The position numbers and the translations under genes were made by a program. DNA of 38,990 nucleotides from Boseongicola sp. (lineage in GTDB: Bacteria; Pseudomonadota; Alphaproteobacteria; Rhodobacterales; Rhodobacteraceae), in NCBI GenBank assembly GCA_028824715.1, contig JAPPCV010000119.1, forward strand, positions 1 through 38,990, written 5' to 3'. Every line of letters starts with the position of its first letter. The stretch's first letter is position 1. Under the pieces are notes generated by a model. It saw nothing but the letters and a program-made list of their open reading frames with translations. It was not told the DNA's origin and made no database searches. This document shows, piece by piece, positions 6,094 through 36,120 of the stretch.

Positions 6094-6993
6094 TCACGGC
6101 GGCGCTGGTACATCTTGCGGCGTCCGCGTCGCCCCGAAGGCACCGACAATGTGGGACTGTTCGAAGATCCCCGCCGCCTCCTCGTGCCCAGGACCGTAGA
6201 AGCCGCCCTGGATGTGCGCACCCGACTGGCCTCGCTTGAAGGTCCCGTCCGGGCCGACCTCGAGGTTGGAGAAGATCACGGCCTCGACGCTGTGCGCTCT
6301 ACCGCGGTCGATGTTCTTGATGCCGCTGAACGCCGCATCGAGCCCGCCTGCGGCCAGGTCGTAGTTCAACGCCGCCGTCCCGACCAGCCGGTCACCCTCG
6401 TCGTCCCCGGCGACGGGCGTTCCCACCATGATCCCGAGCCATGTCGCGGACCCGCCCAGCGGGCGATCCGTGAGATCTCCGAGAGCCAACGCGTACAGGT
6501 AGGTGGACTCGATCCCTTCCACGGCAAAGCGATCGTTGAAGAGCCCGAAGGAGCCATGCTCCATCCAGGCGCCGAACGCGGTCCGCTCCAATCCTGGAGG
6601 CCGCCCGGTTTCCGACACGAGCGTGATGCCGTGCGCGGAGCCGATGGCTTGCGCATCGCCCCGCAAGACCGGGAAGTTGGCGAGGTCACGCTCGTGCGTC
6701 TCGCCGCTCGCGGGATCCTGCAGCTCGCAACGCGTCCCCGAGCAAGTCGCCAGCAGCTGGAACGCAAGATGCCCGTCTGGGTGGACGACCTCAGCGTGCG
6801 TCGTGGACAGGACAAGGGCATCGGCGCGCGCGGCGATTCCTTGCTGGCGCGCCTGCTGCGCCGCCCCAGTCTCTTCCGGCGCCGACAGGCCGGTCAATTG
6901 CCTGACATCGATATCTCCGCCTCCGCTGCACGCCGCAAGCGAAATGACGGCAATGGCCGCCAACGCCAGTCCGCACCCCGAATATCGTCTCAT
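6094..6993 (-). CDS. TbpB-like surface lipoprotein
   Basis: 299 residues. A signal peptide ends in the lipobox SLAAC with the lipidated Cys at position 22, followed by SGGG, so an outer-membrane lipoprotein is expected. The C-terminal half is the transferrin-binding-protein-like 8-strand barrel: WLGIMVGTPV, then RLVGTAALNYDLAAGGLDAA, then a GxFKRGQSGAHIQGGFYGP strand pair and a terminal HEEAAGIFEQSHIVGAFGA. That end (GxFYGPxxEEAAGxF...GAFG) is the hallmark of TbpB-like proteins such as Slam cargo. GGAGG lies 8 bases before the ATG at 6993. Iron, haem or other ligand binding is not deducible. A Slam gene is present at 28873-30285 and could export it. Confidence 0.75.
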   Translation of the reverse strand: MRRYSGCGLALAAIAVISLAACSGGGDIDVRQLTGLSAPEETGAAQQARQQGIAARADALVLSTTHAEVVHPDGHLAFQLLATCSGTRCELQDPASGETHERDLANFPVLRGDAQAIGSAHGITLVSETGRPPGLERTAFGAWMEHGSFGLFNDRFAVEGIESTYLYALALGDLTDRPLGGSATWLGIMVGTPVAGDDEGDRLVGTAALNYDLAAGGLDAAFSGIKNIDRGRAHSVEAVIFSNLEVGPDGTFKRGQSGAHIQGGFYGPGHEEAAGIFEQSHIVGAFGATRTPQDVPAPP

Positions 6994-12520: not shown

Positions 12521-13384
12521 TCATTCTCCCAATTTCCCGCCGAACACGCCCTGGATCCTGTATCCGTCGCGCAGGTACCAGAACGTGGCAGCCACGGCTT
12601 CCCCGTTGGGACCGTAGAAACTGCCCGTTGCCGTCCCTCTCTCTTGCCCCGGGGACGTCTCGAACTGATCTGGGACCAACGTGAACGTCGCGGTATCCTG
12701 AAGCGGGTCGTAGTCGGGGTCGGTCCGGTTGGTCCCCACGTCGCCGCTGAACCACATCCCGGGCAGGTAGTCGCGGCCGCCATCGGGCAACTCCTGCCAC
12801 ATGTCGCTGAGAAAGACGTTCAACACGTCATCCGCACCGGGTCCGTAGTGGTCCCGCGACCCGTAGGAGGCGTTCATCTGCCCGACCACCCGGTTGGTTT
12901 CGTCCTGCCCGCCGGACCTGTCTCCGTACACCCGGCCCCAGACATGGCCCGTATATCGAAACACGCTTGGCAGTTCCTCATTCCGCGGCAGGTTGTCAAC
13001 CAGGCCGGTGGGTGTTCCTTGCACCAGCCAAGTCGAGCCGCTGTCGGTCAGCATGGTCTCCTCCACCCGGAAGTGGTCCTGGGAGAACACCGCCCAGAAA
13101 CCCCAAGATTCTTGATCCAATTGCTCGTCCGGGGGCGGGTCCGCAGGCGGGGCGACTCGTGGAGGCGGGCTCGCAGGCGGAGCCTGTCGAGGAGGCGGGT
13201 CCACGGGCGGAGTGACTCGAGCAGTCGGGTTCACAGGCGGGTCCTGCTCGGGGAGAGGGCTTGACGGCGTCGAGCTGACCCCCATTCCCCTGTCCTGATG
13301 CAAATCGCCGTTCCGGGTGCCGCCGCATCCCCCGCAGGAAATCAGCAGGAAAGCCGATAGCGTGATGAAAATGCAGTCCTTCAT
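12521..13384 (-). CDS. TbpB-like surface lipoprotein with proline-rich stalk
   Basis: 287 residues from the ATG at 13384 (MKDCIFITLSAFLLISC); an in-frame start at 13417 would add 11 residues. The lipobox is LISC, followed by GGCGG. Residues about 30-85 are a low-complexity stalk rich in PPVDPPP, PPASPPP and PPADPPP, encoded by short imperfect DNA repeats at 13130-13250. The rest is a beta-rich domain ending in ATGSFYGPNGEAVAATFWYL and IQGVFGGK, the TbpB-like barrel end also seen in the gene at 6094. The stalk would hold the barrel away from the membrane. The gene starts 115 bases after the giant autotransporter stop on the same strand, so co-transcription is possible. Likely Slam cargo by analogy. 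Confidence 0.7.
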   Translation of the reverse strand: MKDCIFITLSAFLLISCGGCGGTRNGDLHQDRGMGVSSTPSSPLPEQDPPVNPTARVTPPVDPPPRQAPPASPPPRVAPPADPPPDEQLDQESWGFWAVFSQDHFRVEETMLTDSGSTWLVQGTPTGLVDNLPRNEELPSVFRYTGHVWGRVYGDRSGGQDETNRVVGQMNASYGSRDHYGPGADDVLNVFLSDMWQELPDGGRDYLPGMWFSGDVGTNRTDPDYDPLQDTATFTLVPDQFETSPGQERGTATGSFYGPNGEAVAATFWYLRDGYRIQGVFGGKLGE

Positions 13385-13498
13385 GGAGTCATGATGACTC
13401 CCGTGAGGCAGCCTCACGAGGCAGCACCGGACAAGGGGCCGAGCCGCCTGGCGACGTGGGGCTGCCCTCCGGACTGTTCCCCGGGTTCCTGTCAGCTC

Positions 13499-22400: not shown

Positions 22401-25400
22401 GTGTAGGTCCTGTCCGCCCGCGGAGGCCGGACCGCGGTGACGGTGATCTCGGTCTCCGCGCCGTCGAGCCGCACCTGGTGTCCGTCGGCGTTGCCGTCCG
22501 CATCGGCGGGCAGGATCGTTGCGTCGCCGCCTTCCGCCGCCGAGGCCGACACGGTCACGAATTCGTCGGTGCCGAGCGTCGTGGCGTCATACGCGGTCGT
22601 GTCGGCGTCGAACTGCGGCGTCAGGTCGAGCGATGCGGTGCCGTGCGTGATTCCCAGCGAGGCGAGCTTCGCCGCGGCCAGCGTCTGTCCGCCATCCACC
22701 CGGTGCCCGCCCTGCGTCGCCAGCGTGGTCGCGCCAAGGTCGGCGTCGCGCTGGCCGATGCTGGCCCGGATGGTCGCGCCGTTGAGCGCGAGGGCGTCGG
22801 TCCCGACGCTGATGCCGTCGCTGTCGAGGTCGCCGGCCTGGACCTCGTATTCGAACGTCAATGTCCCGCTTCCGGACTTGCCCGCGTAACCGAAGCTCGT
22901 GGCGGAGGATCCGATGTCCACATCGAGGCCGGGCGAGCCGCCGTCCGTGTTCACGTCCACGTCCCGGTCGAACTTCACCGCGACGGCGATGGTCTCGCTG
23001 CTCGCGTAGGTGTCGGTGGCGTGCAGGGGCTGCGAGGTGACCGTGACGCCCGAGACGCTTGGCCTCGGCTGCGTCACCTTCAGCGTGTAGGTCCCGTTCG
23101 GCCGCGGCGCCCTGACCGCGGTGACGGTGATCTCGGTCTCCGTGCCGTTGAGCCGCACCTGGTGTCCTGCGGAGTCGGTGTCCGCATCGGCGGGCAGGAT
23201 CGTTGCGTCGCCGCCTTCCGCCGCCGAGGCCGACACGGTCACGAATTCGTCGCTGCCGCTCGTCGTGACGTCATACGCGGTCGTGTCGGCGTCGAACTGC
23301 GGCGTCAGGGCGAGCGATGCGGTCCCGTGCGTGATCCCCAGCGAGGCGAGCTTCGCCGCGGCCAGCGTCTGGCCGCCGTCCACCCGGTGCCCGACCTGCG
23401 CCGCCAGCGCGGTGCCGCCGAGGTCGGCGTCGCGCTGGCCGGTGCTGGCCCGGATGGTCGCGCCGTTGAGCGCGAGCGCGTCGGTCCCGATGCTGATGCC
23501 GTCACTGTCGAGGTCGCCGGCCTGGACCACGTATTCGAACGTCAGCGTCCGGTTCCCGGACATGCCAGCGTAGCCAAAGGTCCTGGCGGAGGAACCGATG
23601 TCCACTGCGAGGCCGGGCGAGCCGCCGCCCGTGTTCACGTCCACGTCGCGGTCGAACGTCACCGCGACGGCGACGGTCTCGCCGCTCGCGTAGGTGTCCG
23701 CCGCGTGCAGCGGCGACGACGTGAGCGTGACTCCGCCGCTCTCGATGCCCGGCACGTCGCGCACGATGGTCACGGGAAGCTCTCCCGGCGCCAGCGCGCC
23801 CGAGCCGTACCCGGCGCCGTCGCCCGTGTGCGTGAGGGTCTTCGCGGCTTCCTGCGCGGAGACTTGCGAGGCCGCCGTCACGGTCACCGTCTGCGCGTCG
23901 TTCCAGTTGTCCGGCGTGAACGCCAGGCTCTCCGGCTCGACGGTCAGGCCGTTCCCGGCGCCCGCGACGGTCACGTTGACTGTCCTGGACGGCCGCTTGC
24001 CGAGCTTCAGCGTGTAGCTGGCGGTCCCCCCCTCGGCCACCGACAGCGCGGGTGCCGAGAACACGTAGCCGTTCTGTGCCGTCTTCTCCTCGACCAGCAC
24101 CGGCAGGTTGACCGGCGCCGCCGGATCGTACCCGCCGCCCGCGGCCCGATGACGCAGCCTGAATTCCCGGTTCTCCGTCACGCCGTTGTTGCGCGCGGCC
24201 ACGATGACATTCTGCGGCTCGTCCCAGTCGTCCGGCGTGAAGGTCAGCGTCACGCTCGCGCCGGACAGGTGGGTGGAGCCAATCCACAGCGGCGCGCTGT
24301 TGCGTACCGTGACCTCCACCGTCACGTCGCTCGCAGGCTGGAGGTTGAGAGCGACCGTGTACGAACCGTTCGATCCACCCTCCTTGACGTGCAAGCGGGT
24401 CGTGTCGAGGACGATCGCCGCCGAAACCGAGTCGGTCACCTCCACCGCCACGCTCGCGGTGCTTCCCTCGTAGTCACCCCCGCTCGCGGTGTAGGTCAGT
24501 GTCTCCGGATCGTTGGCGGCGTCCAGGTCCGCCGCGGCCTCGACCGTCACCGTCACGGGCGTGTTCCAGGCGTCCGGCTCGAACTCGATCGTGTCTGGCG
24601 TGACCGTGAGATCTGTGTTGGCCGTGCCGGCAAGCTCCAGCGTCACCTTCTCCGTGGGCAACGTCGCGAGCGCGACCGTGTAGGTGGCGCTGCCGTTCTC
24701 GGACACCGGCAGGGTGGTCCGGGAAAGCAAGATCGCGGGCGTGTCGTCGTCCGTCACGTTGACCGGCAGCTCGGCGGTGACCGCGCCGTAGCCCCCGCCG
24801 CCAGCGGTGTGCGTCAGCCTCGCGGTGCCGGGCGCGGCGTCGTTGTCGTGGACCGCGCTCACGCTCACGGTCTGCGCCTGGTCCCAGTTCGACGGCGTGA
24901 ACGTGAGCTGGCTCGTGCCAAGCGTCAGCCCGGCACTCCCGCCGGCGGCGATCGAGACGCTCACGTTGGCGCTCGGCCTGGTCGCCAGCGCCAGCGTGTA
25001 GCTGTTGCTTGCGCCTTCGGTGACTTCGAGGGACGGTGTTGACAGCACGAGCCCTGCCGTGTCGTCGTCCTCTATGGTGCCGGTCGCCGAGGCCGCGGCG
25101 CCCAGTTCGGCGTTGGACGACGGGTTCGAGATCGCGAGCGTGAACGTCTCGTCGGATTCGTCGAGGGAATCCTGCGTCGTGGGGATGCTGATCACGGTCT
25201 CGGTCTGCCCGGCGGTGATCGTCGCAGTCTCGCCGGTTGCGGCGGTGAAGTCGCTCGCGGACGCGGTGTCGCCGGAGCCGATCGACGTGCTGTACTCAAC
25301 CGTCACGTCCGCGTCGGTCGCGGCCCTGATGCTGACGGCGAAGCTCACGTCCGAGCCCTCGACGGCGGCGCCGCCGGTCACGCCGACGACCGGCTTGCCG

Positions 25401-26380
25401 TCGTCGTCGAGAATCGTTCCCGTGGCGGACGCGTCGGTCCCGAGGTCGGCGTTGGACGACGGGCTGGACAGCGTCACGGTGAAGGTCTCGTCGTTCTCGT
25501 CTGCGCTGTCGCCGGTCGTGTCGATGCTGATTGCCGCGACGGTGTCTCCGGCGGGAATCGTGAGCGTCCCTGACGACACGGCGGTGTAGTCCGTTCCCGC
25601 GCTCGCGGTGTCGTCGCCGGTGTCGTACTGCACCGTCACAGCGCCGTCGGTCGCATTGTCGAGGGAGACGGCGAACCGCACGGCGTTGCCCTCGATCGCC
25701 GAAGCGTCCGCGATGCTCAGCGTCGGGTCGGCGTTCCTGTGGCCCCGAATGTCGAACTGCACAGGGTCGCTCGGGGCGGTGGTCCACGAGGTTCCGCTTC
25801 GCTGCAGGCGGGAGTTCCCGATGCTCCAGCCCGGGAGAGACGCGCTGTCCTCTCCGGACGAAGCCGTCTTGCCCCAAGCCTGCCAGTCGGTCTCGGCCTG
25901 CTCCTCGTTCAGGACGATCCAGTAGGTTGTGTCTGCCTGCAGGACCGTGCCTGCGGGCGCCGTGTAGGCGAAGAAGTTCCCGGGCACGTAGGCGACGTCG
26001 GGAGTCTCGAGGGCGGCGACCAGCGTGCCCGGCCGGCCGGCGCTGTCCGACTTGATGGTGACGAAGGTTCCGGTGTCGCCCGTGAAATCGAGGAACGGCC
26101 GGAGCCTGACGGACGAGAGCGTGTAGCCGGTGCCGTGCGGGCCCGTGGTGAAGCTCTGGGCCTCGACCACGCGGCTGGCGCCGGCGTTCTGCTGCTGGCC
26201 GGTGTTGGAAACGAGCGTGGCAACCGTCTGCGCCTCGGCGCCGGTGGCGAACAGGCTGGCAAGAAGCGCAAGGACGGCGGCCACGGACAGGACGCCGGAG
26301 AACGCGCGGCGCCGCCGCTGCACGTGAGCCTGCCCGTTCTCCGACCACTCGTTACCGCGAGTTTCACTGCGTCCGTGCAA
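13499..26380 (-). CDS. Giant autotransporter adhesin-like protein (about 4,290 aa)
   Basis: Start taken at TTG 26380, where GGAGG ends 4 bases upstream; in-frame TTG 26416 or the GTG in front of QRRRRAFSG are alternatives. A basic segment precedes the signal peptide VLSVAAVLALLASLFATGAEA. Approximate residues: 52-218 choice-of-anchor-R-like; 220-440 two Calx-beta; 443-835 tandem sandwiches with EGGTASYTL-type starts; 876-1331 two SwmB/cadherin-like units of 228 residues; 1332-3770 further Calx-beta, fibronectin III (near 1590 and 3080), SwmB-like and cadherin-like domains with Asp-rich joints such as DDDTRGVTV. At 3775 comes SAWLARFGRTVAEQVLDSVE, the usual lead-in to an autotransporter barrel; 3887-4293 is the barrel, ending in HIQARW. 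Type Va secretion of a long calcium-stiffened rod for adhesion is inferred. The frame is intact over 12.9 kb. Several internal segments are duplicated at DNA level. Confidence 0.85.
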   Translation of the reverse strand: MHGRSETRGNEWSENGQAHVQRRRRAFSGVLSVAAVLALLASLFATGAEAQTVATLVSNTGQQQNAGASRVVEAQSFTTGPHGTGYTLSSVRLRPFLDFTGDTGTFVTIKSDSAGRPGTLVAALETPDVAYVPGNFFAYTAPAGTVLQADTTYWIVLNEEQAETDWQAWGKTASSGEDSASLPGWSIGNSRLQRSGTSWTTAPSDPVQFDIRGHRNADPTLSIADASAIEGNAVRFAVSLDNATDGAVTVQYDTGDDTASAGTDYTAVSSGTLTIPAGDTVAAISIDTTGDSADENDETFTVTLSSPSSNADLGTDASATGTILDDDGKPVVGVTGGAAVEGSDVSFAVSIRAATDADVTVEYSTSIGSGDTASASDFTAATGETATITAGQTETVISIPTTQDSLDESDETFTLAISNPSSNAELGAAASATGTIEDDDTAGLVLSTPSLEVTEGASNSYTLALATRPSANVSVSIAAGGSAGLTLGTSQLTFTPSNWDQAQTVSVSAVHDNDAAPGTARLTHTAGGGGYGAVTAELPVNVTDDDTPAILLSRTTLPVSENGSATYTVALATLPTEKVTLELAGTANTDLTVTPDTIEFEPDAWNTPVTVTVEAAADLDAANDPETLTYTASGGDYEGSTASVAVEVTDSVSAAIVLDTTRLHVKEGGSNGSYTVALNLQPASDVTVEVTVRNSAPLWIGSTHLSGASVTLTFTPDDWDEPQNVIVAARNNGVTENREFRLRHRAAGGGYDPAAPVNLPVLVEEKTAQNGYVFSAPALSVAEGGTASYTLKLGKRPSRTVNVTVAGAGNGLTVEPESLAFTPDNWNDAQTVTVTAASQVSAQEAAKTLTHTGDGAGYGSGALAPGELPVTIVRDVPGIESGGVTLTSSPLHAADTYASGETVAVAVTFDRDVDVNTGGGSPGLAVDIGSSARTFGYAGMSGNRTLTFEYVVQAGDLDSDGISIGTDALALNGATIRASTGQRDADLGGTALAAQVGHRVDGGQTLAAAKLASLGITHGTASLALTPQFDADTTAYDVTTSGSDEFVTVSASAAEGGDATILPADADTDSAGHQVRLNGTETEITVTAVRAPRPNGTYTLKVTQPRPSVSGVTVTSQPLHATDTYASSETIAVAVKFDRDVDVNTDGGSPGLDVDIGSSATSFGYAGKSGSGTLTFEYEVQAGDLDSDGISVGTDALALNGATIRASIGQRDADLGATTLATQGGHRVDGGQTLAAAKLASLGITHGTASLDLTPQFDADTTAYDATTLGTDEFVTVSASAAEGGDATILPADADGNADGHQVRLDGAETEITVTAVRPPRADRTYTLQVTHAKPTVSIAASVSTLAFHLQGIEFTVTRAAATAEALDVNFAFTQDQDFLPAGTLSRTVTIPANQTSATLSLASSDFSGGATSDGTLTATISADSAYAVGTDASASVAMVAANPAIVVRPGSTDHVFREDSGTQTISIVAETAAGVPEPTDATFRILARTRNGTAVGGLDYGRIPASFVSFQASDFAAQDGRYVASKSLDVTITDDALAEDSEDFSLQLIPYGFPDAVSLAKADGTLCSSTCDWEIVIVDDDSPPAQVTGVVLTPGGGKLDVAWDEVTGADGYKVQWRSGTETFATAASDNREAAVSSGSTTTHTIPGIADGTDYTVRVIATRDGLEGTPSTEATERPDLRTLTIADATATEGDALAFTVTLSPAASADVTVGYAAADGTATSDSGHADGADYTAPVAGAQLTIPAGQTTGTISVATGDDSNHEGDETLTVTLAGPSSNAVLGTPKTATGTIENDDVTAAEVSSIAFTSLPSDGEYDLGDTIEVSVTFDAAVDVTGTPRVALLLDGTPAADSHALHDPGASSATVLVFRKTVTAADDDDTDGIGVAANALELNGGSIVNQGTTEAAVLDHAAVPNGANIKTRWIESIAVTSTPTVPATVTGDPVYGPGETVRFTVKFESAVTVDTGSGVPALKFSASDSGRQDAAYESGSGGTDLVFAWTVPADVSGDEGAIGVPGNVDAAGTLLTNGGLVLNGGTIEDAGNRAVNVRHGSHTTGSLVDTTAPALAAGAGGAVVDGNELVLAFERASGVPDHLDEDSEPAPGDFTVTVHGTARAATGVDVDGASVTVTLASAVGHAQHVTVGYAPGTDRLQDRWGNGVAAFTGRVARNDTAEPALSIAGATAAEDDGKIEFAVTLDAASGEAVTVDYATSDGSAKAGTDYAAASGTLEFAAGETSETVEVTLADDALAEGDETFKVTLSNVSDASIAISEATGTIEDDEGTPTLTIADATATEGDALAFTVTLSPAASTDVTVGYAAADGTATSDSGHADGADYTAPVAGAQLTIPAGQTTGTISVATGDDSNHEGDETLTVTLAGPSSNAVLGTPKTATGTIENDDAASADADLKALSVSVGGTQVSLTPAFAAGTLEYEADVENTAASVTVSATENHRGASVSIAGDDDTSTPNTADLALAFGESTVKVTVTAQDGVTEKEYLVKVTRAAPVLEWAHDGINVGEDEGDVEIAVSLTPALSERVSVDYATEDSGDSSTPGEDYTSTSGTLVFEPGETRKTFTLSILDDTVYEPTNVGNVVINLSNATAPATFGRNGTVLLVIVGPDNDSPATATMEDVSVDEDEGAMTFVMNLDHPVDGEVAYIATSARVGGTATESDDYGRFVSFGRASISIPAGQTSASLEVTIVDDDIDEEDETLEIGWRVSTGGLLVATEAVNVTGTIVDDDTRGVTVSETALPVAEGGTATYTVVLDSQPTGDVTVTPSRSSGDADVTVSGALTFTPSDWDTAQTVTVSAAEDADAEVDAATVSHAVSGADYGSVAAADVAVTVSDNDTASTEIRLSLSQDALAEGAGSTTITVTGTLDGAALTADVPVTVSVGAGTDGAVEGTDYGTVADVALTIDASEITGTATFALAPVDDGLDEDGESLTVGGTTTVGGLSVTGTALTIEDDDTRGVTVSETALPVPEGGTATYTVVLDSQPTGDVTVTPSRSSGDADVTVSGALTFTPSDWDTAQTVTVSAAEDADAEVDAATVSHAVSGADYGSVAAADVAVTVSDNDTASDVPGRVTGLTAEATVSKVVLNWTAPSGTVFGYRIEASYDGGSSWAEVMANTYGTGTAYTHVSGLKAGETRHYRVSAIFGDGAGPVSEAVEANATIALDGLTAAGLAVEDTADGEPTVDLCWKPTDVVVSDLGSFAIQKRRVHPSFADEWADEDFYGLSASDAADCEAGSIGLRTSYRIDANVRYAFRMRARHARGWALSNDAEAVSVDTTLDFRAEVKTGNSDMSADTDVPATVCRDYDDPSTPGNDAGTFIVNVGFTTGHPLFLYYETVNGFAPADDVTLVNATAELVDRPYSWALGYRLRITPIDWGQPVAVSVPADAVTHAETGLGNQASNVFQRNTADETDCDEGSTTTLYQPFVRRVEILDDDDRNGRWTEGERVSVAADFSENVFVTTEDGVPYVSVTVDDETVQAPYASGSGSSTLVFAHTVTDAQSPVRSMALLADSMTLNDGTITGANGPSVMLRHPGKTREGRALPAAPRLTAEWEKYPPGHSGDGRKFVVRVLFSEPVNIKVRTLRDHALTVVDGDIDTLWQVKDDEGNKRNDLWAIRLMPTSSRDLELALAATTDCDAEGAICTADKRPLSSAISLTVPGPAHEITVADAEVDEGPGAALEFVVTLSEAAPYRVKVDYETEDVTATAGLDYTAVSGQLTFERGETAKTVTVPVLDDDHDDDGETLTLKLSNPTRATIADGVAVGTIRNRDMMPSAWLARFGRTVAEQVLDSVEERISATPRAGVEVKLAGQGVGAAASAGPGGDGEEEAKRRLDAQSSWLRGETEAPDAVRPGSQEDDRDVTALDLLTGSSFRFAAAGDGTGGGLVSFWGRGASSSFDGREGDLALSGEVTSALFGADWTRGPEFRPGGGDVSLFRAGSSTTGLMLSHARGEGTYRGASAGKVESTVTGLYPYGRLAITDRVTAWSVIGYGAGSLALTPDPGPDAEPGDSRTLRTDLDLMMAAAGLRGVLLQASPAGGPELAVKTDALAVRTRTDALLSDAGILAGATGDATRLRLGLQGTWHGLELGDGTLEPAMEFGVRLDGGDAETGFGLDAGAGFDWTRPESGLRLQLSGRGLLTHESKGFRVRGVAGSLVWQPRPEHGRGPKLRVTHALGEASSGGMDTLLSQRNLAGLAADDSGDPLESRSFKLHYGYGFPAFGGRFTSTPEIDIGVSDGEREYGLGWRLDLVKGGASELGFALKAARSEAVDGNAGAASKHTTGFHIQARW
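17163..17500. repeat. 338-bp repeat copy A within the autotransporter gene
   Basis: Matches 17841-18178, offset 678 bases. The first 243 bases of the two copies are identical, including third codon positions; the last 95 differ at a few places. The unit encodes the sandwich domain that starts VSETALPVPEGGTATYTVVL. Confidence 0.9.
17841..18178. repeat. 338-bp repeat copy B within the autotransporter gene
   Basis: Partner of 17163-17500. Identity over the first 243 bases points to recent duplication or gene conversion. Between the copies lies one Calx-beta-like domain, so the duplicated unit may have been 678 bases with loss of similarity in half. Confidence 0.9.
19190..19535. repeat. 346-bp Calx-beta repeat copy A
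   Basis: Nearly identical to 20993-21338, offset 1,803 bases; the copies differ at only a few bases. Encodes a Calx-beta domain that begins LTIADATATEGDALAFTVTL. Confidence 0.9.
20993..21338. repeat. 346-bp Calx-beta repeat copy B
   Basis: Partner of 19190-19535. Differences include one that changes STDVTV to SADVTV in the protein and a few silent ones. Confidence 0.9.
22387..23754. repeat. Tandem 684-bp duplication within the autotransporter gene
   Basis: Two head-to-tail units (22387-23070 and about 23071-23754), exactly 684 bases or 228 codons apart. Each encodes a SwmB-like part (FDRDVDVNT, GSPGLxVDIGSS, DALALNGATIRAS) and a cadherin-like part (LAAAKLASLGITHGTASL, LTPQFDADTTAYD). The units are more diverged than the other repeat pairs. 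Confidence 0.85.
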
Positions 26381-26527
26381 GGTCCCTCCATGTGCCGAAG
26401 GCTTGCCCGGCAACAATTTGCACCAATGTAAGGCCGTGGCTGGCGAGCCGGAGACGATCTGCAGCGGACCGGTCCCGGATGACTTGCTGCGGCGCGGAAT
26501 CTGTAGGACAGGCCGGAAGTTCCCGCT

Positions 26528-27059: not shown

Positions 27060-28601
27060 CTATCGGGCGGCCCCGAACGCCGCCGAGAGATCCGGGTGCT
27101 CCAAGACCCCGGCCGCACCTTCGTGACGCGCGCCCACGAATGTGCCTGTCACGTTTCCGGGATCGTCCCCGGCTGCGAAGACCGAAACGAACACTTCGGT
27201 TCCCGCCTCTGTCCGAACCCCGATGGTGTAGCCGAGGTCGCCATCGCCCCAGGGAAGACCGCTGCCTGGTGCGCCGGGATGGGTCTCCCGAGCCCAGGAT
27301 TCGAGGTCACTGAAGTCTGCCCGACCCTGCAGGCTTGCCAAATCGATGCCGATTTCCGCGTCCCCGGCCACCGGGCGGCCTGCGCCGGTGAAACCCAGCA
27401 ACGATCCGATCCATGTCGCCGTGCGCCGTCCTGTCAATTCCGGGTTGTGTCGCAGCCGTGTCTCGGGCACGGACCCCCAAGCCCAGGGCCTGCCGAAGCC
27501 GTTGCGATACCCGGCCCCGAATTGCACGGTGCCCGAATCCGTGCCGCCAAGGCTCGTCCGGCCGGCAACGTGAAACCCGTCGTCTTCCCACGGTCCGAGA
27601 TCGACGACGCTCAAGTCGGAGACACGCGTTCCGGCAGCGATCTTGATCTCCGCCAGCATTGCCTCGCCCTCAACCGTCAGCCAAAGACGGGGCACGGCGT
27701 TCAGGTTGCGCGGCAGGATGGGCACGAGCAGGGCGTCGGGATACAAGTTCGGATCGACATGCGCTCCCAGCCCCCAGGCGTGCAGGATCTCGTGGGTGAC
27801 GACGAACTCCATCCGCTTGCTGTTGCGCCCAACCGCTGCTCGGTCGATATAGGTGTACCCGCCCAGAACCCGAGACTCCCTGCGGTCGAAATTGGACCCA
27901 CCGATCCCGAGTATGTTCGGTTCGTAGTGCTCGCTCTCTTCAAATTCCGGCCAAAGCGCCTTCCCGTCGGTGAAGTGGATGTGAATTTCGTTTTCGGGAA
28001 TGTCTGCAGTGGCAAGTCGCTCGGGAATGTCGGGGCCAAGCAGGATGCGGTTCTCCCAGGGCAGGCTGGTGTTGATGTTGCGGAGTGCCGCAATGGTTGC
28101 CCTGCGTTCCGAGGCACGCGCCGTGCTGTCGATCCGCAGCGTCTTCTGCGCTCCGAAATCGACGAAGACCAGGTCGCCCCCGCCTTCGCGATCATGCTGC
28201 GTCTGGAAGGCACGGAGGAAACGGACCACCTCCGCCGCGCTGGCACTGCCGTCGCGGCCCAGCGGGTCTCGCCAGCGTCCGGTGCCAACCTCAAACGCCC
28301 CATGGCGGGACCGAGTCTCAAGATCATCGAGATCCGGTCTCTCACTCGCAAAGGCCGGGCCGATCCCGACACGGCGGTCGCTGAAGCGGTAGGAGACGCG
28401 CACCTCGGCGGGCAGGGGCTTGGCAAAGGGATGAGGTGGCGGAGAGGGCGGCATTGGCGCTGGTGCCGGGATCGGCGGCGTGGCGCCTTCGCCGCCACCT
28501 GTTGACGGTCCACCCCCGCCGCCGCAGGCTGACAGCAGCAGGGTGGCCGCAAGAACCGTTGCCGCCAAGCCGCGTGGCCGTGTTTCACAAGCACGCTTCA
28601 T
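27060..28601 (-). CDS. Lipoprotein: metzincin-like protease module plus TbpB-like barrel
   Basis: 513 residues from the ATG at 28601 (GAGGAG 9 bases upstream). The signal peptide ends in LLLSAC with Cys26, then a GGGGGP linker. Residues about 60-290 resemble a zinc protease domain with the motif HEILHAWGLGAH at 270-281: HExxH with the general-base Glu, then Gly and a third His at position 12 instead of 11 as in classical metzincins. The following VDPNLYPDALLV lacks an obvious Met-turn Met. After a conserved joint (DLGPWEDDGFHVAGRTS), residues about 390-513 form a TbpB-like barrel: TATWIGSLLGF, GDAEIGIDL, RADFSDLE, then VTGTFVGARHEGAAGVLE and AAFGAAR. The Slam gene lies 271 bases upstream on the same strand. 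Inferred: surface-displayed metalloprotease exported by Slam. Substrate unknown. Confidence 0.75.
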   Translation of the reverse strand: MKRACETRPRGLAATVLAATLLLSACGGGGGPSTGGGEGATPPIPAPAPMPPSPPPHPFAKPLPAEVRVSYRFSDRRVGIGPAFASERPDLDDLETRSRHGAFEVGTGRWRDPLGRDGSASAAEVVRFLRAFQTQHDREGGGDLVFVDFGAQKTLRIDSTARASERRATIAALRNINTSLPWENRILLGPDIPERLATADIPENEIHIHFTDGKALWPEFEESEHYEPNILGIGGSNFDRRESRVLGGYTYIDRAAVGRNSKRMEFVVTHEILHAWGLGAHVDPNLYPDALLVPILPRNLNAVPRLWLTVEGEAMLAEIKIAAGTRVSDLSVVDLGPWEDDGFHVAGRTSLGGTDSGTVQFGAGYRNGFGRPWAWGSVPETRLRHNPELTGRRTATWIGSLLGFTGAGRPVAGDAEIGIDLASLQGRADFSDLESWARETHPGAPGSGLPWGDGDLGYTIGVRTEAGTEVFVSVFAAGDDPGNVTGTFVGARHEGAAGVLEHPDLSAAFGAAR

Positions 28602-28641
28602 CGCTACAAGCTCCTCGTCCCTCGCTCCCTTGGCCGTCAAG

Positions 28642-28656
28642 GGTCTGCATCAGACC
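28642..28656. promoter_or_regulatory. Short palindrome GGTCTG-CAT-CAGACC upstream of the protease lipoprotein
   Basis: Perfect 6-bp arms around three bases, about 40 bases before the ATG at 28601, in the spacer after the Slam gene. It could be an operator or a small hairpin in the transcript. Confidence 0.3.
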
Positions 28657-28872
28657 AAGGCGCTTGATGTGGCAGGTCCAATTCGCCCGGGACTGTCCAT
28701 CGTTCGCGAAACCGGAAACCTGAAGACCGTCGCGCACCTCGACTCCCAACGTCCACCGGCTCGGACGGGAGTGCGCGACCCGGGACTGGACAGGCCTCGC
28801 TGCATTCGCCGCGATTCTTCAGGACTCAGCTCGTCTGCAGCTTCGTCGATCATGATGACAGGAACCCTCCGT

Positions 28873-30285
28873 TCAGAACTGCCTCACGAAGCTGATTTCG
28901 CCAAAGGAACGCTCGTAGTCCTGGAAGACGGCATTCGAATCTCGTACGGAACGGCCCAGCGTCAGGCGCGGGCTGAATCCGCCGATCGTCAGGTCGCGCT
29001 TGGTCAGGTTTGCGCTCAGACCCGTCGTGCGGTCCTCGCGCCGCCCACCGTCAGTGGTTGAAAACCCGATCTCGTCATACCTTGTCCTGTTCAAGGAGGC
29101 TTCCAGCCCGATCGTGAACCCTCGGGGCAGGTCCCGGCTGAATCCAAGGCTCAGCCCGTAGGTCCTGGTCCGGCGTGTTGCCTGGTCCGGGCGGTCGCGT
29201 TCCCCGAAGACGGATGCGTTCAGGAACATTACAGGTGTGGCCTGGTAGCGGACGCCGAATCCGAGGTTGGCGACAGGGCCGTCACGGTCAGGCTCCTCCT
29301 TCCAGTTGCGCTCGCGCCAAGAGCCATTGAAGTTCAGCAAAGTCCTGCGCCCGCGGATGTGCTGTCCTTCGAAGCGAAGCCCCAGTTCGTCGTGGGAAAC
29401 GCTTGACCCCTGCCAGTGACGGCTTGCCACGGCAAGCAGGCTCGCTTCCGTGCCGGGCGCAATCAGCCAGCGCGGACCTGCCTGGGCGCCCAGCGTCATC
29501 CTGTCGAAGCGACTGCCCGCATATTCACGGCGAGAGACGTTGCCGCCGAAACGCAGTCGCGTGCGTTCGCCGAACGGTCGCTCGTATTCCCAGCCACCCC
29601 AGAGGAGCACTCCCACTCCGGAAGTCGGTTTATCATCGGGAGTGAATGGAAGCCGCCCGAAAGGGGTGTCGACCAACTGCGCCCGCTGGGCCGGGGCCGC
29701 ACCGATGTTGGTGTCCGGGGCCAGCCCGATCCCGCCATACGCGGACCAGCGCCGACGGGCGCGGATCTCGGCCAGAAACCGGTTGACGTTGGCCACGACA
29801 GGCGCCGGGACGTCTCCTGCCAAGACTCGTTCAAAGTGCCGCCGGGCCAGGCCGTCCTGGCCCTTCAGGAAGAAGGCGCGGGCCAGTTCCAGCCGGACCC
29901 GGGTCTGATCGGGATTGGCGGCTAGCATGGCCTGGAATGCGGCGATGGAGACATCCAGGAATGCATCACGTTCAGCTTCCCCGATCCCGGGGCGATGGGC
30001 CAGCGCCAAGGAGACCATGCCGGTCTCGAACAGCAGATTGCCTGCACGCGCATCGCGAGCCGCCAGGGGGCGAAGGATGGCGAATGCCGCCTCCCACTGA
30101 CCTTCGCTGAGCAGCGCGGCCGCCGACCCGATCAGCGCATCCGCCGAAACAGCAGCCGGCTGTGTCGCCGGCGCGCCGTCCTGCCCATAGGCCGATCCCG
30201 CGGGGACGACCAGCGAGACGGTCAGCAAGGCTCCAAACAGAAACGAAGCGAGGCTCACGCCAACGTTCTTGCGAGTTGTTCCCAT
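28873..30285 (-). CDS. Slam: surface lipoprotein assembly modifier (DUF560), type XI secretion
   Basis: 470 residues from the ATG at 30285 (AAGG about 10 bases upstream). A signal peptide is followed by a helical repeat region at about 45-170 (ALLSEGQWEAAFAILRPLAA, QTRVRLELARAFFLKGQDGL, ARRHFERVL), the TPR-like domain of Slam. The junction RRRWSAYGGIGLAPDTNIG is the signature start of the DUF560 barrel, which runs to the C-terminus with many alternating strands and ends SFGEISFVRQF, a terminal-Phe outer-membrane signal. The length fits known Slams (about 480-500). Slam proteins move TbpB-like lipoproteins across the outer membrane. The next gene on this strand is a TbpB-barrel lipoprotein, the classic Slam-cargo arrangement. 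The gene is intact, unlike the porin remnant upstream. Confidence 0.88.
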   Translation of the reverse strand: MGTTRKNVGVSLASFLFGALLTVSLVVPAGSAYGQDGAPATQPAAVSADALIGSAAALLSEGQWEAAFAILRPLAARDARAGNLLFETGMVSLALAHRPGIGEAERDAFLDVSIAAFQAMLAANPDQTRVRLELARAFFLKGQDGLARRHFERVLAGDVPAPVVANVNRFLAEIRARRRWSAYGGIGLAPDTNIGAAPAQRAQLVDTPFGRLPFTPDDKPTSGVGVLLWGGWEYERPFGERTRLRFGGNVSRREYAGSRFDRMTLGAQAGPRWLIAPGTEASLLAVASRHWQGSSVSHDELGLRFEGQHIRGRRTLLNFNGSWRERNWKEEPDRDGPVANLGFGVRYQATPVMFLNASVFGERDRPDQATRRTRTYGLSLGFSRDLPRGFTIGLEASLNRTRYDEIGFSTTDGGRREDRTTGLSANLTKRDLTIGGFSPRLTLGRSVRDSNAVFQDYERSFGEISFVRQF

Positions 30286-30829
30286 CAATTGCAGACCTTT
30301 CGTGCTTTCGGGACGCTTTTCGTCCCGACTGAAACTGAATTCTCTTCGCTCGACTGTCCTCGAACTCGACAGCAGTCGAATCAACTCTCGGTGACTCCCG
30401 GCAGTTCCGCAAGGGGACTTTGTGTCTTGCTTGATACCGGGCCGAGCGGAACTCTCGTCCGTCATCCCGCCACCCCTGAAGTCGCATCGATCTTCTTTGC
30501 GTCCAAGATGCAGGACGAATTCAGCTGTCCATCTTGCATCGCGGGCCTGGCCGTCACTTTGGGCCACATCCATTCCGTCGCGGCTTCCGTGCAGATGTTG
30601 GGAGCGTTCCAAGTGACGGGACCCGCAACCCGCCCGGTGATGCACCGTCCTGGTTCGGACGGCGTCGCGATCTTGAGTGGCCTGTCATGGTGAATGAACC
30701 CGTCAACCGTCACATCGAATGCGTCCATGTCTCCTGCCACCAGCTTGTGCCCTGGTCGAACGAATTCCGCTGCACGCAAGTCAATCTCTGTTGTGTCATC
30801 GCCCTGGGTCGAATGCGGCACCAATGCCG

Positions 30830-31400
30830 AAGTGAACCTGTTCGCCATTGTTCGAAGCGAAAGCCGTGAAGTTGGCTGAACCGGAAACGAGGGACGCAAA
30901 AGCTCCGTACGCATCCTCTTCAGCAGCGGGGTCGTTGTCGTCACGGGAGCCAAGAGCCAGCTCGATGCTTGCATGGCCGAACCCAGCGTTCAGGCCAGCA
31001 ACAACGTTTGGTTGTCACCGAGTCTTTAGGCGCGGATCCCGAATCCGACAACGCCTATGCCATAGTCCTTGGCTCAACTCAACGCCTGATCACCTTCCGG
31101 TCCAGGGATGTCATCCGAAGCGTATAGTGAAAGCTCGCCCATGTGCAGTGCCAGCGTGCAGTCGGGAGTTTCGACATCCGCGATATGGGTGATTTCCGTC
31201 AAGCGTCCAAACCGGTCATGCCTATGCCACTGCTTGGTCAACGGCCTGCTTTGCGGCACCGGCCGAATCACCAAAGTTTAGCCTGCCGAACGCGCCAGCC
31301 ACGTGGGCGCTGCCTCCCGTGCCCGCAGCGCCGCCACCTGCGTTGTCAGCGTGGATCGAACCGCCGAACGCTAGGTCTTTGTCCGTCTCACTGGAAGCCG
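30830..31400 (-). pseudogene. Porin remnant (Rhodobacterales-type general porin)
   Basis: Porin-like pieces occur in order in several frames on the minus strand. Near 31250-31390 the text reads DLAFGGSIHADNAGG, then AHVAGAFGRLNFGDSAGAAK, a typical strand and loop around the GxFGxLxxGD motif. Near 31080-31220 it reads LTEITHIADVETPDCTLAL and GELSLYASDD. Near 30850-31000 it reads AGFGHASIELALGSRDDNDP then AAEEDAYGAFASLVSGSANF. Stops and shifts separate the pieces. The 5' end with its signal peptide and the 3' end were not found. An outer-membrane channel gene has decayed directly upstream of the Slam gene. Confidence 0.6.
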
Positions 31401-31994
31401 TAAAGCTGGTAGGGATACGGCGGCTGAAACCGATAGGCGCAACATGACAATGTCAGGCCACATCTGCCACGAACAGTGCCCGCCGGTTGGTCAAGACTCT
31501 TGAAGTCCCGGCAGTACGAATTCTTCGAATGGCCGCTCACTGCATTCCTGCCTGGCCGACGCTTTCGATGAGATCCTTTGGCACAGTGTGATAGATGTCG
31601 CAGATGACGAACCCGGTGAGTTTGCGGCAGGGCCTGGATCCCGCATTCCTGGCCCCAGACGGAAGACCCGGATGGGCATCCGGTGAACTTCGACACCAGA
31701 GCCCATCTGCTGGAACGAACGTGTTCTTCGCGCGCTCGGTTCATTGGAATGGGGCGATCTGTCAGACCGGATTGCCGGACACCCGGCACTGTGCCACTGA
31801 CGCCAGATTGTGTCGGAAGGATCGCAATGCGGCACAAACCGGCCCGCTGCTGCGAACTGCAGCGTATGGTGCCATTGTTCGTCATGCTGGCGCGATGCCA
31901 AGCGGCTGACCGTTGGCCCCGTGCTGGTTGGCGACTGAGTGCCGAAGAAGACCGGCGCGGGCAGATTCTGGAACAAGCCTTAGGAGCATCTGCC
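31401..31994. other. No gene recognised between porin remnant and integrase
   Basis: About 590 bases. A long minus-strand frame (31388-32044) runs into the integrase and is Arg/Ser/Cys-rich. The integrase reading frame is also open upstream to 31683, but GGAG at 31983-31986 and family length favour the ATG at 31995. I see no gene here. Confidence 0.4.
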
Positions 31995-33185: not shown

Positions 33186-34632
33186 CTCCGACGAACAATG
33201 ACGAGGTAGCAACGCTTCAAGCAGGCGAATCCGGATTGCGATGATCGGAACGTGCTGGCCCGCGGCGCGCTCTGTGCCGAATTTGCGGAGTGGGTCGTGA
33301 CCCAGATGCAACGAAGGATCGGCGGCACTCATTCGCGCGATGAACGGGCTTCGAAGTGACGACAGTAACCAGGCACTCGAACGGAGGATCCGTTGCGGCA
33401 TTCGGCGCCATTGGCAATGCTTGTCGGGAACCCTCACGAGTTGCAATCCACGAGCGGAATCGTGGACGCGGCCACTTCAGCCCCGAACGCGGCGGACCCT
33501 GACAAGGACTTGCGTCGAATTGATCCCTGCACGAGCCCAAGGGTCCGCAAGCCTGCACGTCGGACTGGCAAACAGTTGGCAAGCCATTGGCAAACAAGTT
33601 GCGTCGAAGCCGAGGCGCTTCAGGTCACGTCGAGTCGTGGTAAAATCCTTACGGGATATGTATAGGGGGGCTTTCATCTCGCAGTCACGAGCATCGCGGA
33701 AATGGCCTCTGACGACAGAGCAGAGGCGAAGTGGCATGCGAGCGACGGGGGGCGATCCGTCCGGCCGGGTCGGTGGCTCGCAAGCGACCGGGACAATCAC
33801 CTTGTGGGATCCTTCGTCGCCGAGAAGGACTGAACCGCACGGCCAAAGGCGTTGAACTGCAAGCCAGGAAGACAATGGAGACGGGGATCCTCGCCTGCTG
33901 GCGCAGGTGACGTTCCGTCCGCATGACTCACGGCTGTTCCTTGCCTTGACCCAAGAAATTTACCAAATCAAGGATTGCAGGGCACTCCGTTGACGCGGAG
34001 CGGCGTGTCCGGAGTTTCGGCGGCAATTCAGGAGAGCGGCTTTGGGCAGGTGGCCCGCCACATGGAACAAGACGTGAAACATGGCGACCGGCGGAGCGAT
34101 TTTACCGATCAGGCGGAACGTCGATGAAGACTGGCGGTGATGATCACGTGCCCTTGCTGGTCCGCTCGAGAATGAAGAGACGGACGCAGCGGCGAGGCGC
34201 ATTCCGACTGCACTCACCGAATCGAGGATCGGTGCCTTGCCGGTCGTGAAGAATGCGTGAAAGGTGACGCTCGACCTGGCATTGAATTGCACAGGTGAAG
34301 GGCGGTGCAAGCGATCATCGCGCGTCCGGTTGACCAGGACGGCTCGATGGATTCTTGCAAAGGAGGCCAGGATGCCGAACCCGAGATGGCAGGACACCCT
34401 GTCGGCTCCCGTGCGCACGCATGGTGGCCGCCAGGCGGACCCTTCAGCGCGGAGGTTGTTCTCGTGGCGCGCGAGCGCTTCCTGCAACGCACGTCGACGG
34501 GGTTTGCGTGGCGCGCCGGTGTCCGAGGATCCATGCGAACGCGGCGAATGTCAGAAGGCCAACGCATGCCATCAACACTGGCTTCGTGGGAAAGTGCCGC
34601 CGCCAGTTTCATGCCTTCGTGATCCGGGAACA
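33186..34632. other. Region after integrase, repeats but no gene recognised
   Basis: About 1,450 bases. It holds the phased TGGCAA repeats and an AT-richer stretch at 33635-33670. Open frames on both strands (for example minus 33960-34487 and 33477-33875) lack ribosome sites and families. It may be decayed mobile-element DNA. Confidence 0.4.
33566..33597 (+). repeat. Three TGGCAA repeats with exact 11-bp period
   Basis: TGGCAAACAGT, TGGCAAGCCAT and TGGCAAACAAG follow each other without gaps, beginning at 33566, 33577 and 33588. The 11-base period puts all three copies on one face of the helix. Position 380 bases after the integrase suggests arm-type integrase, excisionase or other protein sites. 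Confidence 0.6.
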
Positions 34633-36120
34633 ATGAATGAATCGGCCAGTCCTGAAGCCTGCCCGCGCCTAGTTCCGGGCAGACATGGGACGCCCTGGGC
34701 AGCCCCGCTCCTGATCGGCCTAGTGCCGCTCTTGGCCTCATGCGGCGGAGAGACCATACGGGAGGCCGTGGGCGATCGAGGACTCCCCTTGCAGACGGCC
34801 TTGCATGCGCATCAGGCGCCGCTGGTCGACCTCGGCGACAGGTTGCACGTGGGAGCCGACGTCGCTGCCGCAGACGGCGACCTGCCGGTTGTTGCCGTCC
34901 ACGGAAGCGTCGACGTGTCGCACGGGACGGTCCGCGACGGCATCGGCGCCGCGGAGATCGTCGCCTACCTGCGCGCGGACGCCGCCTCGTACCTCGCTCC
35001 GGACGACGACCCGATGGCCTCCGATGCGTTCCTGTCCGACGGTCTCGTCTTCCGGTTTGCCGAGACGCCGCCGACCGTCCGCGTCGCGGAGGGCACGCCA
35101 GCCGGGCTGGTCGACGAGACTGTCCGCGTGGTCCAGGCAATCAATGCGGCGCTGCCTCGACATTGGCAGCTGCGGTTCAGCCCCGAACCCGCGCCGGCCG
35201 TCATGCCGGCCCCTCCTGACGGCGAGATCCTGGTCAACTTCGTGGCGCAGGCGACCTGGCCCAGCGAATCCGATCCGGTGGTCGACCCGGACCTCGGGCT
35301 TGCCGTGCCGGAATACGCGTTCGCTCCCACGGGCGATCCGCAAGCCCCGGTTCGTCTCGAGATCGTCGCGGGCACGGTCTGGGTGGACCCCTCGCGGACC
35401 GAGGGGCTGGAACGGCTGGGCGTCATCGCGCACGAGCTCATGCACCTGCTAGGGCGAAGCCACGTGGATCCCGGGCGCTTCCCCGAGACGCTGATGGTGG
35501 CCGGTGGCAGCGAATCGCTGACCGGACACGTGCTGCACCCGCTTGATCGCGAGGCCCTCCACGCGGTGTACGGACGCCTGTCGACAAGCGCCGCGCCGGA
35601 CCGGATCGCGGAAGAGCTGGGCCCGTGGTCAGACACTTCATTGCACGTGCAAGGGCGATCCGGGGCCGGTGACGGGGAGACGGTCTTCGGCACGGCGCTG
35701 CGGAACGGCCTGGCACAGCCTTGGGCGAACGGGCCGGCTCCGGCTTCCGGTCCGGGCGACAACGCCGCGCTCTCGGGCAGCGTACGCTGGTCGGGCCGGC
35801 TGCTCGGGCTCACGCCGCGATCGGAAACCGTCGCGGGGATTGCCGAACTCGTCGTCGACTTTCCGAACATGTCGGGCACCCTGGACTTCTCCGGACTCGA
35901 GCGCTGGCCCGCCAGCGCGGCACCAGGATCGGAGGGAAGCGGATCCACGTGGCGCGACGGCCGGTTGGGCTACCAGGTCACGGTAAGGGGCAACACGTTC
36001 GTCCAGTCCGGTGGCGATGCGGGCCTGGTTACCGGGGCGTTCTTCGGCACCTCCCACGAAGGCATGGGCGGCGTTCTTGTGCGCGAAGACCTGAGCGCCG
36101 GATTCGGAGGCACGCGCTGA
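34633..36120 (+). CDS. Second metzincin-like protease plus TbpB-barrel lipoprotein
   Basis: 495 residues from the ATG at 34633, the first start that yields a lipoprotein signal; the lipobox is LLASC with Cys37 after an unusually long N-region. A weak GGGA precedes the start. Residues about 60-340 contain HELMHLLGRSH at 267-277, an exact HExxHxxGxxH zinc motif with catalytic Glu268. It is followed by PETLMVAG, a plausible Met-turn, and LDREALHAVYGRL, which matches the end of matrixin-like catalytic domains. The joint ELGPWSDTSLHVQGRSG and the barrel (SGRLLGLTPRS, MSGTLDFSGLE, VTGAFFGTSHEGMGGVLVRE) match the protein at 27060-28601, so the two are paralogs. There is no Slam gene next to it; the one at 28873 may serve it. 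An active surface metalloprotease is inferred; the substrate is unknown. Confidence 0.78.
   Translation: MNESASPEACPRLVPGRHGTPWAAPLLIGLVPLLASCGGETIREAVGDRGLPLQTALHAHQAPLVDLGDRLHVGADVAAADGDLPVVAVHGSVDVSHGTVRDGIGAAEIVAYLRADAASYLAPDDDPMASDAFLSDGLVFRFAETPPTVRVAEGTPAGLVDETVRVVQAINAALPRHWQLRFSPEPAPAVMPAPPDGEILVNFVAQATWPSESDPVVDPDLGLAVPEYAFAPTGDPQAPVRLEIVAGTVWVDPSRTEGLERLGVIAHELMHLLGRSHVDPGRFPETLMVAGGSESLTGHVLHPLDREALHAVYGRLSTSAAPDRIAEELGPWSDTSLHVQGRSGAGDGETVFGTALRNGLAQPWANGPAPASGPGDNAALSGSVRWSGRLLGLTPRSETVAGIAELVVDFPNMSGTLDFSGLERWPASAAPGSEGSGSTWRDGRLGYQVTVRGNTFVQSGGDAGLVTGAFFGTSHEGMGGVLVREDLSAGFGGTR

Follow-up and report, generated by a model that had tools for sequence, protein, structure and literature searches.

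A Slam gene beside a lipoprotein that joins a metzincin-type zinc motif to a Slam-cargo-type barrel: a candidate surface-protease export pair in Boseongicola

Slam outer-membrane proteins of the type XI secretion system (T11SS) have TbpB, HpuA, haemophilin and NilC among their cargo, and the Slam cargo described in the parts of the literature consulted are adhesins, haemophores, metal-binding proteins and complement-binding proteins. According to the two-domain model of T11SS cargo, as given in the consulted parts of PMC9100927 and PMC12282271, a barrel directs the cargo to the outer-membrane protein, while the effector is formed by the N-terminal part. Here we analyse a window of DNA, by which we mean the whole stretch of 38,990 nucleotides (contig JAPPCV010000119.1 of assembly GCA_028824715.1, Boseongicola sp., a marine bacterium), in which a Slam gene lies beside the gene of a fusion lipoprotein. 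The locus resembles the described systems in that SlipAM stands beside a lipoprotein and that an N-terminal effector part is joined to a C-terminal barrel of the NF041636/PF01298 type, and it differs from them in that the effector part is a metzincin-type domain. Judging from the sequences, we read the locus as an export pair in which Slam (type XI) would have a surface protease as its cargo, with a probability of roughly 0.66; the export system is known, and the fusion family probably adds a new class of cargo to it.

About ten T11SS cargo architectures are described in PMC12282271, with no protease named in the consulted part of that paper, and the consulted parts of PMC8406197, PMC5449769, PMC9090332 and PMC9100927 likewise name no protease as Slam cargo. 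No report of a protease as Slam or T11SS cargo was found in the literature searched (open-access texts without supplements), and a protease would apparently be an unreported class of Slam cargo. With regard to related hosts, the T11SS loci of Cluster 3 marine Rhodobacteraceae are described with DUF1194, thymidylate synthase and lactoylglutathione lyase in the same part of PMC12282271. These loci are comparable to that of the window in their hosts and in having a Slam gene with a barrel lipoprotein, whereas none of the 13 window proteins scanned against Pfam (a subset of the open reading frames) matched any of the three families. A further point of comparison is the NalP-type lipoprotein autotransporter, a serine protease that is lipid-tethered on the Gram-negative surface and is carried there by its own translocator. 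The way of working would be alike, namely a lipid-tethered protease on the surface of a Gram-negative bacterium, whereas the window has a zinc-type domain and a separate Slam.

The Slam gene (Table 1) is intact, as the original prediction claimed. SlipAM/DUF560 (PF04575) covers residues 180–470 of the protein completely (profile positions 1–288 of 288, 72.1 bits against a cut-off of 22), the TPR_19 match also exceeds its cut-off, that to TPR_Slam (PF24575) stays below (21.6 bits against 35.2), and the N-terminus carries an apparent signal peptide as judged by eye. The protein is an ordinary member of the Slam family and the sole SlipAM match in the whole assembly (5.24 Mb, 98% complete). Both genes of the pair lie on the minus strand, with Slam upstream and 271 bases between them; their coordinates, strand and spacing had been predicted correctly. 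A promoter and terminator scan of positions 28500–30600 gave no promoter-like site, and the minus-strand interval that separates the genes showed no terminator-like one; both results are uninformative.

The lipobox of the fusion lipoprotein, LSAC, was identified by eye, and its Cys26 is nearly invariant across 22 aligned members. The alignment comprises 20 usable full-length or near-full-length sequences out of 29 loci (see below), the long form being left out, plus the two copies in the window, and the aligned members are 31–92% identical to the window protein. Because H270, E271, H274 and G277 are identical in all 22 members over this range of identity, the zinc motif of the family is, at the sequence level, more than chance. 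The third His, H281, is kept in 20 of the 22 (Arg in L046, Asp in L062). A lipoprotein with the zinc motif H270-E271-H274-G277-H281 in its N-terminal part had been predicted, and the motif HEILHAWGLGAH is indeed located there and conserved; its spacing, HExxHxxGxxxH, is however one residue longer than the textbook metzincin form HExxHxxGxxH. The exact textbook spacing is found in four rows (the second copy in the window, L057, L059 and L061), and 18 of the 22 have one extra residue before the third-His column (with Asp at that column in one and Arg in another). In metzincins a Met-turn follows the zinc motif; the column eleven residues past the third His, a candidate for this turn, is occupied by Met (10 rows), Leu (11 rows) or Val (1 row).

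The TbpB-like nature of the C-terminus, which had also been predicted, emerges from the relatives, whereas it is undetectable from the window protein alone, for which neither Pfam nor NCBIfam gave a TbpB-type barrel match. Out of 26 C-terminal domains of the family, 15 match the NCBIfam model NF041636, 'Slam-dependent surface lipoprotein' (E up to 0.01), and 11 match Pfam TbpB_B_D (PF01298), with HpuA in one (E up to 0.1). The NF041636 cut-off of 80 bits was reached by none of the five proteins compared with it; TbpB_B_D scored 31 bits in L045, above its cut-off of 26, in a protein that also has a weak matrixin match. Since the window protein, which ends in GVLEHPDLSAAFGAAR, matches no relevant family when taken alone, its nature is read from these relatives. 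TIGR04515 matches in two of the 26 domains were judged to be chance, and four weak matches of the barrel profile in the Protein Data Bank (PDB), two to ficolin, one to an antibody and one to GNA2132 (E 1.8), are not relied on; GNA2132, which we take to be a known Slam cargo, is not used as support. As separate observations on barrel architecture, long fusion forms in L042, L045, L049 and L050, with an open frame of 1130–1398 residues and both a middle and an end barrel, carry HEIGHxLGAW without a clear third His, and two adjacent barrel-bearing open frames, L054:3-491 and L054:406-2052, the second with HExxHxxG, possibly represent a tandem fusion pair.

To relate the fusion to Slam across genomes, we counted a match of the catalytic-segment profile (A4) as strong at E below 1e-20 and Slam as present at E ≤ 1e-10, a threshold of our own choosing. 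The 337 alphaproteobacterial genomes searched hold 13 strong catalytic matches in 5 genomes, and the barrel accompanies all 13, in one case within a gene that a stop interrupts. Slam is present in 5/5 of these fusion genomes compared to 17/332 of the others (p 7.5e-7 by a Fisher test, which here and below ignores shared ancestry), and in 4/4 when the own genome, known beforehand, is set aside (p 1.1e-5). When barrel-only genomes are included, the counts become 7/8 and 15/329, the miss being G323, which has a short fragment only. Among 198 Nitrospirota genomes the fusion occurs in 3 and the barrel alone in 2, and these 5 have the five best Slam scores; Slam accompanies barrel proteins in 5/5 compared to 5/193 (p 1.0e-7), or 5/5 compared to 30/193 at a looser E ≤ 1e-3 (p 1.3e-4). 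Two of them, G082 and G083, were known beforehand to have both fusion and Slam, and without them barrel proteins occur with Slam in 3/3 (p 4.5e-5). Co-occurrence with Slam across genomes is a link independent of adjacency. Altogether Slam was detected in 23 of 26 genomes holding fusion loci; these genomes cover 26 of the 29 loci, the remaining three being in the same assemblies. With regard to adjacency, 7/8 genomes of the genus have Slam immediately upstream of the fusion, twice in G003, with a contig break within the fusion in G004 and a broken Slam frame in G006. L041 likewise has Slam upstream, and in L038 the two genes are convergent; the locus stretches of L039 and L040 showed no Slam, and in G333 it lies about 10 kb from the fusion.

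The family shares with the metzincins (matrixins M10A, serralysins M10B, leishmanolysin and astacin) the HExxHxxG motif with a third His, the candidate Met-turn and profile matches, and is unlike them in its usual extra residue and in being a lipoprotein with a Slam-type barrel; the window protein, moreover, has no Pfam M10 match. Searched against PDB sequences at E up to 10, A4 matched 107, and 57 of the best 60 of these 107 are metzincins, with MMP-14 the best of them (E 0.0055). On the 337 alphaproteobacterial genomes A4 returned the fusions and three weaker matches (E-values per genome): two (E 4.3e-7 and 2.4e-6) with HEIGHAxGLKH and RTX-like repeats, which by eye resemble serralysins, and a third with HEIMHSLGVRGH, which has the long spacing of the window protein (E 3.8e-8). 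The sequence HEIMHSLGVRGH is carried by a protein without a barrel, L099:916-2139 (minus strand), which may be the catalytic domain's closest non-Slam relative. An hhalign comparison with 12 matrixin-like sequences gave Prob 94.3, and its score of 55.3 lay above all 60 motif-keeping shuffles, if modestly (mean 42.6, maximum 48.9). Masking the motif reduced the score to 12.5, so that by this control most of the score comes from the zinc motif, and the PDB and genome profile matches weigh more than the hhalign result for the metzincin link. Matrixin (PF00413) was matched by 3 of the 22 members at E up to 0.1 (best 0.0014), with the cut-off of 24 bits unreached: the window protein gave no match and two long members scored 17.6 and 15.5 bits. 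As far as the sequences go, homology to known metzincins is seen for the family profile and not for the window protein alone.

On this basis we propose that the fusion lipoprotein would be lipidated at Cys26 and delivered to the outer membrane, where Slam would recognise the C-terminal barrel and pass the unfolded chain outward. The metzincin-type domain, predicted to bind zinc, would then fold outside, where it may cleave a putative substrate while being held by the lipid and the Gly/Pro-rich linker. Slam1 moves unfolded TbpB with the help of Skp, as stated in the consulted part of PMC9090332. A protease cargo would pose the question of how a cell takes it through its periplasm unharmed, and the unfolded export of TbpB in that part of the paper offers an answer, as an unfolded crossing would keep the protease inactive inside the cell. 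With such a cargo the barrel would also become an address tag of general use, for enzymes and binders alike.

The predicted display of a protease by Slam is supported by the Slam gene, the type of the C-terminal domain, the conserved zinc site and the co-occurrence, with the function itself presumed from these. Several observations weigh against this reading. The absence of the third His in 2/22 members and a TonB-dependent receptor gene adjoining the fusion in L047 would suit a Slam-exported surface lipoprotein whose metzincin-like domain does not cut and which binds metal, peptide or a host ligand instead; such a receptor is the usual partner of binding cargo, the Met-turn column is a mixture of Met and Leu, and known Slam/T11SS cargo bind ligands (PMC12282271, consulted part). 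We nevertheless regard a binder as unlikely, given that the catalytic Glu (E271), not required for binding alone, is invariant in all 22 members, and that a lipoprotein subtilase near the fusion in L047 and L053 hints at proteolysis.

Other observations concern the partnership with Slam. No Slam was found in 3 of the 26 fusion genomes (those of L039, L042 and L046), nor in G001, and in the non-rhodobacterial locus stretches Slam is not adjacent, with a weak match in L042 only (E 3.5e-5). Added to these, the Fisher tests take no account of common descent, and the Nitrospirota fusion alone, without G082 and G083, co-occurs with Slam in only 1/1. A periplasmic or otherwise exported protease lipoprotein, with Slam serving other cargo and the barrel merely structural, would agree with adjacency limited to rhodobacterial members, with the genomes lacking a detected Slam and with the curated slam_lipo cut-off, unreached in the five proteins compared. 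This arrangement appears improbable in view of the co-occurrence in two groups, Alphaproteobacteria and Nitrospirota, of the constant company of catalytic domain and barrel in the 13 strong matches, and of the NF041636 matches of the barrel family.

The last set of unfavourable observations concerns the catalytic domain. The window protein alone has no Pfam match and no relevant PDB sequence match, and its three NCBIfam matches are at chance level only (best E 0.034). Pfam matches of single members are weak and mixed (M10 in 3/22, astacin in 2, SprT-like in 2, leishmanolysin in 1), and the PDB E-values of the catalytic profile are weak, the top match being MJ1213 (E 0.0035; 3 forms among the best 60 of 107), which we take not to be a metzincin. 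It is still very improbable that HExxH arose here by chance or belongs to another motif than that of metzincins, in a domain that is no metallopeptidase: HExxH is common by itself, the window protein has no domain match and the motif dominates the hhalign score, but H, E, H and G are invariant down to 31% identity and the profile reaches metzincins and serralysin-like proteins.

For the candidate export pair, comparison with the related locus L034 (window 28600–31900) shows that the two partners have diverged to different degrees. The fusion proteins of the window and L034 are 92% identical (dS 0.23) and the flanking DNA on the two sides is 91% and 89% identical, whereas the adjacent Slams are 47% identical (dS about 2.0). 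Judging by these sequences, one Slam gene appears to have replaced another while the cargo next to it was conserved. Both Slam types occur in G003, each with a fusion, L008 and L035 have Slam fragments beyond the fusion, and broken fusion copies are present in G002, G003 and G007. Among six close fusion genes dN/dS ranged from 0.19 to 0.29 in 15/15 pairs, which fits a gene kept by selection. Lipoprotein subtilases lie within about 13 kb of the fusion at L047:8453-10846 and L053:2061-4370 (homologous, 58% identical), with a partial one in L042, and these neighbours give a hint of extracellular proteolysis. The subtilases of L047 and L053 were rejected as further carriers of a Slam-type barrel, having no barrel-profile match; their ends look autotransporter-like by eye, and their NCBIfam matches are weak to autotransporter proteases and stronger to mycosin.

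The first survey of relatives covered 61 genomes from the own genome, genus, family and class. The genus had the fusion protein in 8/8 genomes, with G001 showing only a C-terminal piece of it at the edge of a contig, and other genera of the family had it in 0/29; the 24 other genomes of the class gave one match (G048), confined to the signal-peptide region. A close-relative scan of the genomes of 84,980 species returned the 29 loci, all titled metagenome-assembled genomes (MAGs). Their titles name Boseongicola, Silicimonas, Rhodobacter, Rhodobacteraceae, Alpha- and Gammaproteobacteria, Pseudomonadales, Nitrospinota/Nitrospinae, Nitrospira, Binatia, Deltaproteobacteria and one Dehalococcoidia; on plasmids no relative was found. 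A tree of 23 members requires 3 changes of the label Pseudomonadota, of which starred branches force at least 2. In it the second fusion of the window is paired with a copy from its own genus, within a clade that also holds Nitrospinota and is partly supported. This pattern fits gene transfer without proving it, since paralogy or errors of binning may give a similar picture. The MAG titled Dehalococcoidia carries a barrel fusion at L046:4644-6320 with no Slam found; because an outer membrane would presumably not be expected in this lineage, the contig may have been placed in the wrong bin.

As to habitat, the SB bins are presumably of sponge origin. The bin names COS, CAR, RHO, APA and CO match sponges sampled in PMC8163846 (Coscinoderma, Carteriospongia, Rhopaloeides, Aplysina and Cliona orientalis, in the consulted part), from which we infer a sponge origin for these relatives; the comparison does not cover the jk18x and p16x bins. 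For sponge microbiology the family would also provide a candidate surface protease unnamed by standard annotation. A bold possibility, which we put forward tentatively and consider doubtful as a whole, is that the family is a Slam-displayed, matrix-metalloproteinase-like one, unnamed by Pfam and NCBIfam and transferred among sponge symbionts of several phyla as a shared tool for cutting the host extracellular matrix or processing extracellular proteins. The survey of about 1200 sponge MAGs in PMC8163846 identified no collagenase genes, according to its consulted part, and a family acting on the host matrix could, if real, partly explain their absence there.

Table 1. Positions of the fusion lipoprotein, the Slam protein and related proteins in the window
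Feature	Position	Strand	Basis
Fusion lipoprotein, 513 aa, candidate Slam cargo with metzincin-type domain	27060..28601	minus	Open reading frame and translation, ATG at 28601; 22-member alignment
Signal peptide with lipobox LSAC, residues 1-26, Cys26	28524..28601	minus	Read from sequence
Gly/Pro-rich linker, residues 27-60	28422..28523	minus	Read from sequence
Metzincin-type catalytic segment, residues 125-338	27588..28229	minus	Profile A4: PDB metzincins, serralysin-like proteins
HEILHAWGLGAH, residues 270-281	27759..27794	minus	Conservation in 22-member alignment
Residue 292, candidate Met-turn position, Leu in the window protein	27726..27728	minus	Alignment column
C-terminal TbpB/Slam-cargo-type barrel domain, residues 386-513	27063..27446	minus	NF041636 / PF01298 matches of family members
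Slam / type XI secretion outer-membrane protein, 470 aa	28873..30285	minus	PF04575 E 7.5e-20; ATG at 30285
SlipAM barrel of Slam	28876-29748	minus	PF04575
TPR stretch of Slam	about 29809-29958	minus	TPR_19 E 3.9e-6
Second fusion of the family, start uncertain, HELMHLLGRSH, C-terminal domain of the same type	34264..36120	plus	
Small lipoprotein, TbpB_B_D barrel, without protease motif, further candidate cargo	6094..6993	minus	
Lipoprotein-like protein, weak partial TbpB_B_D match, possible further cargo	12521..13417	minus	

The window holds three more proteins related to the barrel (Table 1). The second fusion, which has the exact HExxHxxGxxH spacing, is 36% identical to the first (E 9.8e-43) and matches slam_lipo at E 7.9e-4 and the barrel profile at E 3.7e-49. 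The small lipoprotein scores 30.4 bits for PF01298, above the cut-off of 26, and matches slam_lipo at E 7.2e-7, while the lipoprotein-like protein stays under that cut-off (22.4 bits) and has no NCBIfam match. In the own genome as a whole the barrel profile matches at 9 places, two of them the fusions and two others above the PF01298 cut-off; matches below this cut-off lie at 12533–12661 in the window and at C26:21127. One Slam is therefore found alongside at least nine barrel proteins, and it probably serves several barrel lipoproteins. Further genes of the window include one for a candidate giant surface protein of 4305 residues with Calx-beta, cadherin-like, fn3 and SWM repeats (13499–26416, minus strand) and one for a tyrosine integrase (31683–33185, plus strand; PF00589, E 5.4e-19) with about 89% DNA identity in L034. 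The presence of this integrase near the Slam locus makes an island possible. Two genes on the plus strand, at 1175–2170 and 2979–4427, encode NTP_transf_8 (PF12281) and Fic (PF02661) proteins, respectively.

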